The position numbers were made by a program, and so were the translations under genes. A DNA stretch of 32,146 bases from Deltaproteobacteria bacterium (lineage in GTDB: Bacteria > Desulfobacterota > WTBG01 > CAIYCZ01 > CAIRTM01): NCBI GenBank assembly GCA_016875025.1, contig VGSH01000025.1:1-32146 (forward strand). The letters run 5' to 3'. Every line of letters begins with the position of its first letter. Within the stretch, counting starts at the first letter, position 1. Below are positions 12,475 to 14,690 of the stretch, in pieces. The notes under the pieces are model-generated. The model was not told where the DNA came from, made no database searches, and saw nothing but the letters and a program-made list of their open reading frames with translations.

Positions 12475-13740
12475 TTATGCAGCGTTCTGCGAAGCGCGCC
12501 GGACCCCAAAGCGGCTCCTGTCGCCGGAGCGAGCATTCGGCTTCCGGGCCGGCTTTGATGAGACAGCCGGACGCCGTGTCTTGTACATCGGCCGGCGCGG
12601 ACGGTCCGATACCTCGGATGCGTCGGCCGCAAAACCTTCCATATGCCCGTGCTGCAAACGATCGCCCAGCATCCGCTTGATTGAACCGGCTGTTGAGCCG
12701 TCGCTGCCGGTGACAAAGGTGAAGGCTTCGCCCAGAGCGCTGGCGCGGCCCGTGCGGCCCGTGCGATGCGTGTAGGCATCAACCGTGTCGGGTATATCGT
12801 AATTGATAACATGCGACACACCGCGCACATCAATGCCGCGCGCGGCAACATCGGTTGCGACCAGTATTTTATACGTGCCGCGCCCGAACCCGTCCAGGGC
12901 CTTCTGACGGTTATTCTGAGACAGGTTGCCGTGCAAAGCCGTGGCCCGATGGCCCGAGCTCTCAAGCTGATGGGCAATAGTTTTGGCGCGCATCTTTGTG
13001 CGGGCGAACACCAGCACCGGTCCGGTCGGGGTTGATGCCAGCAGCTTTTTCAGCAGATCCGTTTTGCGGGCGGTCTGCACCGGATAGAACACATGCGACA
13101 CCGAGTCGATCGGCGCGGTGTGGCCGATCTGCACCCGTACCGGATTATTCAACACGGCGTCGGCCAGATGACGGATGTCGTCGGGCATGGTCGCGGAAAA
13201 CAGCAGGGTCTGGCGCTTGACGGGCAGCGCGCGGATGATCTTTTTAATATCCGGCAGAAAACCCATGTCAAACATGTGATCAGCCTCATCCAGCACCAGC
13301 ATATCGATGGCGGAAACATCGATCGTGCCGCGCTGAATATGATCGAGCAGCCGACCGGGGCAGGCGCAAATGATATTCACGCCCCGCTTCAGTGACATGA
13401 TCTGCGGCTGCATGCTGACGCCGCCGTAAATGCTCATGCTGCGCAGCCCGGTGCCGCGCCCCAGCTGGCCGATTACCTTGTTGGTCTGCTCGGTCAGCTC
13501 GCGCGTAGGCGCGATGATCAGGGCTCTGACCTTTTTGCGCGGCCCCTGCATGAGCTGCTGCAGTATGGGCAGCACAAACGCGGCGGTCTTGCCGGTGCCG
13601 GTCTGGGCCAGGCCCATGACATCGCTGCCGCCCAGTATCGGAGCTATTGTCTGCGCCTGGATCGGGGTGGGCTCGCGAAAGTTAAGCGCCTGAATGTTGG
13701 CTCGTATTGTTGCGTGAAAATTGAAATCATTAAAATTCAT
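12475..13740 (-). CDS. DEAD-box ATP-dependent RNA helicase, RhlE-like
   Basis: A 421-residue helicase. The Q motif (FREPTPIQAQT, 21-31), motif I AQTGTGKT (45-52), Ia PTRELTEQ (79-86), II DEAD (151-154), III SAT (182-184), V ARGIDV and VI HRTGRTGRA are all intact. A lysine/arginine-rich tail of about 55 residues follows, as in RhlE-type proteins that use it for RNA binding. Role: ATP-driven RNA unwinding in ribosome assembly or mRNA turnover, often cold-induced. AGAAGAA is about 6 nt before the ATG. The upstream 400 bp hold a promoter, a terminator hairpin and a mobile-looking repeat, so expression may be controlled in a long leader (see 14036-14177). Confidence 0.92.
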   Translation of the reverse strand: MNFNDFNFHATIRANIQALNFREPTPIQAQTIAPILGGSDVMGLAQTGTGKTAAFVLPILQQLMQGPRKKVRALIIAPTRELTEQTNKVIGQLGRGTGLRSMSIYGGVSMQPQIMSLKRGVNIICACPGRLLDHIQRGTIDVSAIDMLVLDEADHMFDMGFLPDIKKIIRALPVKRQTLLFSATMPDDIRHLADAVLNNPVRVQIGHTAPIDSVSHVFYPVQTARKTDLLKKLLASTPTGPVLVFARTKMRAKTIAHQLESSGHRATALHGNLSQNNRQKALDGFGRGTYKILVATDVAARGIDVRGVSHVINYDIPDTVDAYTHRTGRTGRASALGEAFTFVTGSDGSTAGSIKRMLGDRLQHGHMEGFAADASEVSDRPRRPMYKTRRPAVSSKPARKPNARSGDRSRFGVRRASQNAA

Positions 13741-13872
13741 TACGTATTCTTCTTTCTTTTTGTGGTGTTACTGCTTTTGTGGTGTTGCATGTTTCAAAAC
13801 AAACTATGCCGGCCCTGATGCCGGTCCGGTATGTGGGTCTACTGTGGGATGTGTGCTGCTCCTTCTATAACC

Positions 13873-13992
13873 GGCTGTTGAAAAATGTCCACCTACTGCG
13901 TTGCGCTCGTCACTCGTCTTTGCGGCGTACGGAAAAGTACGCCTCATTCCTCATGATGTCGCGCGCCTTGCATCTGCACTTTTTGAACAGCC
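13873..13992. repeat. 120-bp MITE-like repeat with GGCTGTT-n-AAAAA inverted ends
   Basis: The left end GGCTGTTGAAAAA (13873-13885) is matched by TTTTTGAACAGCC (13980-13992) at the right, 12 of 13 pairs. The middle has a perfect hairpin GGCGTAC-GGAAAA-GTACGCC (13924-13943). The sequence TATAA flanks both sides within a few bases, possibly part of a target duplication. There is no transposase ORF. I recognise this as a dispersed element type seen in deltaproteobacterial genomes. It lies in the leader of the helicase gene. Confidence 0.7.
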
Positions 13993-14035
13993 TATAAAAC
14001 AAACCTTTTTCATAACGCTGTGTTGCAGTCCAGCA

Positions 14036-14078
14036 TAAAAAAAGCCCTGCGGATTTAATTTAAAATCCACTGGGCTTT
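14036..14078 (-). terminator. Intrinsic terminator
   Basis: Read on the minus strand: AAAGCCC, a 3-nt internal bulge, GGATTT, short loop, AAATCC, 3-nt bulge, GGGCTTT and then a run of T ending at about 14036. The stem has 13 base pairs. It lies about 300 nt downstream of the zinc-ribbon gene and about 300 nt upstream of the helicase start. Confidence 0.7.
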
Positions 14079-14142
14079 GCATTTAAAACTTACTGGATTT
14101 CAGATTAGGTTTTCAGCGAAACGCTGAAGGCTTTTAAAATTC
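14036..14142 (-). ncRNA. Candidate small RNA or attenuation leader upstream of the helicase
   Basis: The stretch from the predicted transcription start (about 14142, 7 nt past the -10) to the U-tract at 14036 is about 105 nt and has no ORF with a ribosome-binding site. It begins with a 7-bp hairpin (14128-14112) and ends with an intrinsic terminator (14078-14036). A segment AAATCCA at 14100-14094 can pair with TGGATTT at 14069-14063, the inner 5' arm of the terminator, so a terminated and a read-through fold are both possible. Either a free small RNA or a regulated leader for the DEAD-box gene, whose ATG is 296 bp further on, would fit. This is an inference from sequence only. Confidence 0.45.
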
Positions 14143-14148
14143 TTTAGC

Positions 14149-14177
14149 AGAATATACGATACATAACTAAATGTCAA
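14149..14177 (-). promoter_or_regulatory. Candidate sigma-70 promoter upstream of the terminator/leader
   Basis: Minus strand TTGACA (14177-14172), a perfect -35, then TATTCT (14154-14149) at 17 bp or TATATT (14156-14151) at 15 bp. The surrounding 60 bp are AT-rich. No closer promoter is evident for the DEAD-box gene. Confidence 0.5.
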
Positions 14178-14375: not shown

Positions 14376-14690
14376 TCACTCAGGCTTGCCCGGCATCCTT
14401 ACGCTGAGGAAGAAAATATTCCGAGACAAGCCGGAAGGGCAGCAAAACCACTCGACCGCATCCAGCTTCGGCAGGCAGATATGCCGCGGGTCGGCCGCAT
14501 ACGCTCCGCAAAACTGGCACCTGTAGGTATCCTCAAATTTGCCCGGATTGCATAAATGTTTTGCGTTGCTCGTGGTCCTGCCGCAGGTCTTGCAGGTATA
14601 CACTTTTTTTACGGCACTTTTTGCGGTCGAAGCTTTCTTTTCAGGTGCTTTTTTCGCAGCAGGCTTTTTAACGACTTTTTTGGTTACCAT
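14376..14690 (-). CDS. Small zinc-ribbon protein with Lys/Ala-rich N-terminus
   Basis: A 104-residue protein. Residues 1-30 are a KKxAAKK-type basic region like histone H1 tails, suggesting nucleic-acid contact. Two cysteine motifs follow: YTCKTCGRTTSNAKHLCNP (31-49) and YRCQFCGAYAADPRHICLP (56-74), each C-x2-C-G...H-x-C, probably binding zinc. A third repeat seems to begin at WFCC but lacks the second C-G pair and the closing H-x-C, so the last 25 residues look degenerate. I recognise the fold as a proteobacterial zinc-ribbon family without known function. AAGGAG stands 7 nt upstream of the ATG. A 22-nt hairpin (14729-14750, CCCTGCGTG/CATGCAGGG) lies in its probable 5' leader. Confidence 0.75.
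   Translation of the reverse strand: MVTKKVVKKPAAKKAPEKKASTAKSAVKKVYTCKTCGRTTSNAKHLCNPGKFEDTYRCQFCGAYAADPRHICLPKLDAVEWFCCPSGLSRNIFFLSVRMPGKPE

Follow-up and report, generated by a model that had tools for sequence, protein, structure and literature searches.

A conserved leader with an intrinsic terminator and a predicted antiterminator precedes DEAD-box helicase, cold-shock protein and RRM protein genes

What is known of how RNA helicases and cold-shock chaperones are tuned comes mostly from Escherichia coli, Bacillus and Caulobacter, usually one gene at a time. A cold-shock leader RNA with alternative folds is the cspA thermosensor of E. coli (cited in PMC6239172), which acts on translation and mRNA stability and works without a leader terminator, whereas the leader described here has one. 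Caulobacter crescentus, like the organisms studied here, carries long leaders on cold-shock genes, namely cspA/cspB and rhlE: cold induction of cspA is a relief of transcription attenuation, the 5' UTR of rhlE is 186 nt long, and rhlE fusions are more active in an rhlE mutant, an apparent negative autoregulation (PMC5472812). The box common to the Caulobacter csp leaders is, however, reported to be absent from rhlE (PMC5472812), whereas in our case, insofar as the two systems are compared by description, helicase, csp and RRM genes all share a single leader. From another perspective, RNA chaperones can alter how often intrinsic terminators are read through. Intrinsic termination is changed by Csps in E. 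coli (metY-rpsO operon; CspD), where CspD overcomes leader terminators (PMC9765468), whereas in Bacillus subtilis CspB and CspD favor termination (PMC8307031), and since these reports disagree, the sign of a Csp effect cannot be assumed. Moreover, in those bacteria the effect belongs to the protein, which acts on unrelated terminators, whereas here the chaperone genes themselves are preceded by a conserved leader that contains its own predicted antiterminator. Riboswitches, T-boxes and the L20-infC leader offer the same arrangement of exclusive terminator and antiterminator ahead of a gene; unlike riboswitches and T-boxes, our leader has no recognized ligand or tRNA domain and only about 25-30 conserved nucleotides before the terminator. 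Rfam yielded no match at gathering score to the whole window (the 32,146-nt stretch of DNA that was analyzed) or to 20 loci tested, the best scores for the window at a lax threshold being far below gathering, and no description of these leaders was found in the open-licence literature. Attenuation by terminator and antiterminator is thus a known principle; a leader common to helicase, csp and RRM genes is absent from Rfam.

At the locus examined, promoter, leader and intrinsic terminator all lie on the strand of a DEAD-box helicase gene and upstream of it (Table 1). A sequence-only reading of this DNA had picked out a minus-strand TTGACA with a plausible -10 box, which is TATTCT at 17 nt, and the pair is the only sigma-70-like site on that strand between 13600 and 14900. 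A TTGACA with a TATnnT-like box 16-17 nt away is found ahead of most homologous leaders. Transcription would be expected to start near 14141, which leaves 63 nt between the start point and the terminator. The same reading had described a terminator with a 13-bp stem and a T run; the terminator is there, with seven T at 14043-14037, but its stem is slightly longer, consisting of AAAGCCC/GGGCTTT (7 bp), one A.A mismatch, and GTGGATTT/AAATCCGC (8 bp). The predicted 112-nt fold has a free energy of -30.2 kcal/mol, against a mean of -18.3 in dinucleotide shuffles (z -3.84). The 7-bp hairpin that had been noted was also found, but it is kept in the same genus only, lies outside the conserved core, and could not be held by the leader of G006, which is too short. 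As for the helicase, the best NCBIfam models are CshA, DbpA and RhlE, all scoring below their own cut-offs, and for this reason we give it no narrower name. Its ATG lies at 13740, the full 296 nt past the T-run that the earlier reading had counted. This unusually long spacing is explained by a high-copy element (at least 40 genomic matches), which, to judge from the alignment, is an insertion between terminator and gene in this species; the same-genus relative G001 lacks the element here and has about 160 nt from terminator to ATG. The element is not part of the switch. Upstream of the leader, the window encodes a small lysine/alanine-rich protein with CxxC pairs (14376-14690, minus strand), for which no Pfam match was found. 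Among relatives, the genes upstream of the leader vary in family and in orientation, and thus the terminator does not belong to the upstream gene.

Table 1. Features of the window at the helicase locus, and the two further leader types found in other loci
Feature	Position	Strand	Basis or remark
Sigma-70-type promoter (predicted)	TTGACA 14177-14172, 17-nt spacer, TATTCT 14154-14149	-	consensus; like relatives' leaders
Leader RNA, ~106 nt (predicted)	14037..14141	-	also the expected product of premature termination
Conserved core of leader family	14036..14108	-	covariance model match 92.1 bits; 14-sequence alignment
Intrinsic terminator	14037..14078	-	folding; compensatory changes in relatives
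7-bp hairpin TTCAGCG/CGCTGAA, 3-nt loop	14112..14128	-	folding
AAATCCA, 5' strand of antiterminator outer helix	14094..14100	-	folding and homologues
TGGATTT, 3' strand of antiterminator and part of terminator 5' arm	14063..14069	-	folding and homologues
GTTTT, 5' strand of antiterminator inner helix	14085..14089; partner AAAGC 14078-14074	-	weaker support than outer helix
DEAD-box RNA helicase, 421 aa, RhlE/CshA-like core	12475..13740	-	Pfam DEAD and Helicase_C
High-copy element, ~150 bp, terminal inverted repeats (CAGGCTGTTGAAAAA...TTTTTCAACAGCCTG)	13868..14020	-	genome matches and alignment
Second leader type, TGTTCCYGGA...GCCCCGGAA..TCCGGGGCTTTTTT...GGAACA-SD	30-130 nt before helicase		L052, L054, L058, L065, L068, L069, L088, L140-L149 and others
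Third leader type, GCAGTACCTGATTGTAGTCAA, terminator, then segment able to pair back	terminator at -108 to -114		L172, L174, L175, L181, L182, L184, L187, L189

In DNA searches the leader was 87% identical in the same genus and 73% identical in another genus of the family, and it was recovered from the same genus and three further genera of the family, always before the orthologous helicase and at 67-90% identity. Overall it stands before the helicase orthologue in 8 class genomes and in one Desulfobacterales MAG. Two of the helicase leaders came from named public genomes in a survey of 80 helicase loci: L029 from an uncultured bacterium (the same contig as G014) and L048 from the Desulfobacterales MAG. 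A covariance model made from seven leaders and run over 17 genomes of the class returned 14 matches at E <= 0.05, 13 of which precede a helicase, csp or RRM gene: eight stand before the helicase (G000, G001, G005, G006, G007, G008, G012 and G014), three before the gene for an RRM-domain RNA-binding protein (G002, G007 and G008), and the others before a CspA-type gene in G004 and a csp gene in G005, the csp and RRM assignments being those of Pfam CSD and RRM_1. The 14th match, before an HU gene in G003, looks like an ordinary terminator. A second covariance model, applied to 395 phylum genomes, brought in one further RRM leader, L136 of G004, which has its own TTGACA, so that RRM genes carry the leader in 4 genomes overall (G002, G004, G007 and G008). 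Weakly scoring candidates beside unrelated genes (L124, L129-L133, L135 and L137-L139) also look like ordinary terminators. As a reverse check, the csp and RRM genes of nine family genomes were gathered; the leader stands before csp-RRM or RRM-csp gene pairs in G005, G002 and G008, and in G000 the helicase is the only one among the helicase, csp and RRM genes to carry a leader of the window type. The main finding, then, is that a single RNA element stands before genes of three protein families which are unrelated but all act on RNA structure.

The earlier reading had also proposed that AAATCCA pairs with TGGATTT, a part of the terminator's 5' arm, so that two exclusive folds would be available. 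Both sites are where it had placed them: in a transcript cut at 14060, before the terminator's 3' arm, AAATCCA:TGGATTT together with GTTTT:AAAGC constitutes both the MFE and the centroid structure (-20.5 kcal/mol, z -3.96), whereas the complete RNA prefers the terminator fold. Since this predicted antiterminator occupies most of the terminator's 5' half, the two folds are mutually exclusive. When they are cut at the corresponding place, nearly all homologues are predicted to fold as the antiterminator, and shuffled leaders and ordinary terminators do so less often. The expected pairs between leader and 5' arm exceed those in dinucleotide-shuffled leaders, with combined p values of 6e-9 for 16 leaders and 3e-7 for the nine helicase leaders alone, and p 6e-4 for the six csp/RRM leaders alone, all of which are approximate and serve as guides only, the leader sequences being related; the mean is 9.7 pairs, versus 5.2 in 70 other terminators from these loci (p 1e-6). 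The terminator covaries, with 14 alignment cells (14 sequences) in which both sides have changed, a count equaled in 0 of 500 shuffles. The outer helix of the antiterminator is formed in 94% of cells and yet is almost invariant; compensatory change was sought in it across the aligned homologues and none was found, and because of this near invariance the antiterminator has no covariation support. The inner helix does vary in sequence between homologues, is statistically marginal (combined p 0.05), and is missing from two RRM leaders, and in G012 and G014 (AAAACCCC) the antiterminator pairing must shift register. Both stems are nevertheless kept in relatives, on which the earlier reading had staked its proposal, and the exclusive antiterminator is retained above shuffles and controls, if without covariation. 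The terminator greatly exceeds the antiterminator in stability, and switching therefore has to rely on kinetics or on help from a protein.

We consider it likely that the leader is a cis-acting transcription attenuator of the helicase mRNA, common to several RNA-chaperone genes, and we infer that termination is conditional; the alternative stem kept in relatives favors a conditional terminator, as does the association with helicase, csp and RRM genes, and the sequence-only reading, which had put such a terminator in control of the helicase, gains support on both counts. A variant of this attenuator reading, with overlapping probability, is that a Csp, helicase or RRM protein binds TTAATYTRAAATCCAGTAAGTTYTGAAT as a single strand, the pairing being secondary, and brings about protein-mediated termination or antitermination and autoregulation. 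This is somewhat unlikely: the motif is conserved beyond its paired bases, and E. coli Csps bind nascent transcripts and alter termination, including at the tnaC and thiM leader terminators (PMC9765468), but the motif varies least precisely where it is complementary to the 5' arm. That the terminator is constitutive and sets low expression, with the alternative pairing a side effect of similar A+T-rich sequence, is improbable. An antiterminator lacking covariation and a terminator strongly favored at equilibrium are compatible with such an arrangement, but it would leave unexplained why the pairing of the conserved leader segment with the 5' arm surpasses that in shuffles and in control terminators, and why the leader is reused before csp and RRM genes. 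We regard as quite improbable an independent trans-acting small RNA made by promoter and terminator, with the helicase served by its own downstream promoter. The discrete transcript of some 106 nt with its tail of seven T would suit it, as would the distance from terminator to gene here, which is partly inserted element; against this, no promoter consensus was found on the minus strand between terminator and helicase gene, including the 13860-13741 interval in which a separate start had been offered as a test of the earlier proposal, and two of the RRM copies leave only some 23-34 nt between terminator and gene start, too short a gap for another promoter. Moreover, conservation is not independent of the downstream gene, the credible homologues keeping their place before a helicase, csp or RRM gene, and because promoter, leader and terminator track that gene and not the upstream one, a conditional terminator is favored over a small RNA, which may arise as a by-product of attenuation. 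Finally, although the earlier estimate of about 105 nt held for the length of the leader, its claim that this stretch is free of any ORF did not, since an ATG at 14082 opens a frame of about 42 codons that crosses the terminator; but ribosome-dependent attenuation through a peptide from this ATG is almost certainly wrong, since no Shine-Dalgarno was found for it and the ATG is missing from G001 and G005; the frame does not encode a conserved leader peptide, and no conserved translated leader ORF precedes the terminator.

For the conditional attenuator that we favor, the csp and RRM copies place the leader before cold-shock genes, and it would belong to an RNA-chaperone regulon, probably of a cold-shock nature. 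The CspA and RRM copies lend weight to the hint of cold control in the sequence-only reading, and the signal is perhaps cold or a shortage of RNA chaperones. The order of events would be as follows. The antiterminator hairpin would be made first, from the 5' arm of the terminator, and the 3' arm would have to displace it before the polymerase leaves the T-run. The usual outcome would be displacement, whereupon RNA polymerase would stop and the short leader RNA would be released. Cold would slow strand exchange and RNA chaperones would speed it; with slow exchange in the cold, or with scarce chaperone activity, the antiterminator would persist, and transcription would read through into the gene. 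Read-through would in turn raise the proteins that end the condition, restoring chaperone activity. That the leader senses RNA-chaperone activity in this manner, the antiterminator being a kinetic trap that needs strand exchange, such that termination follows from warmth or from sufficient CspA, RRM or helicase activity and read-through from a shortage, is a tentative proposal and, as it stands, unlikely. If true, three families of RNA-unfolding proteins that are not related to one another would be held in homeostasis by one RNA device, and leaders built to a similar plan would have arisen separately in other groups. If helicase, CspA and RRM genes do have one leader type in common, the attenuator would mark out an RNA-chaperone regulon, and feedback via RNA strand exchange could be tested directly; the list of known regulatory RNAs would gain new families as well.

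A second leader type, of a plan similar to that of the window, precedes DEAD-box helicases in Geobacter-like, Desulfobacterales and Nitrospirota genomes, with the order promoter, TGTTCCYGGA motif, terminator GCCCCGGAAnnnTCCGGGGC at 30-60 nt before the ATG, GGAACA, and Shine-Dalgarno. A model of it run over 297 genomes of the phylum found a match at E <= 0.001 in 43, and the strong full-length matches that were checked precede helicases almost without exception, none being before a csp gene. The helix that flanks the terminator of these leaders seems to covary by eye (L144, L147 and L153) but scores poorly on a MAFFT alignment, and for the Geobacter-like leaders it is a lead only. A third type is found before one csp gene in 8 of 9 family genomes, G000 included, and its motif resembles that of the second type. 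Syntrophaceae-like genomes have a different, long and very conserved leader about 250 nt before the helicase (TTCCTTGCTATT...GATAGCGATAGTTATTTGCCTTCC...; L031, L032, L035, L037, L038, L040 and L041), without a clear terminator.

Two minor observations concern the gene neighborhoods. A bS21 gene is the immediate upstream neighbor of the helicase (L134, G165) or of an RRM gene (L206, L207; G000, G001), which is another link of helicase and RRM genes to RNA and ribosome functions. One of these loci, L134, a match of the second covariance model in an rpsU/bS21-helicase operon of another family, was considered as a case of a compensated antiterminator, which the ensemble test does not support. In G002 and G008, a second RRM gene (L218, L219) is preceded by a promoter and by a terminator whose end lies at -154, and these leaders, of which L218 scores 27.5 bits, may be diverged copies of the window type.
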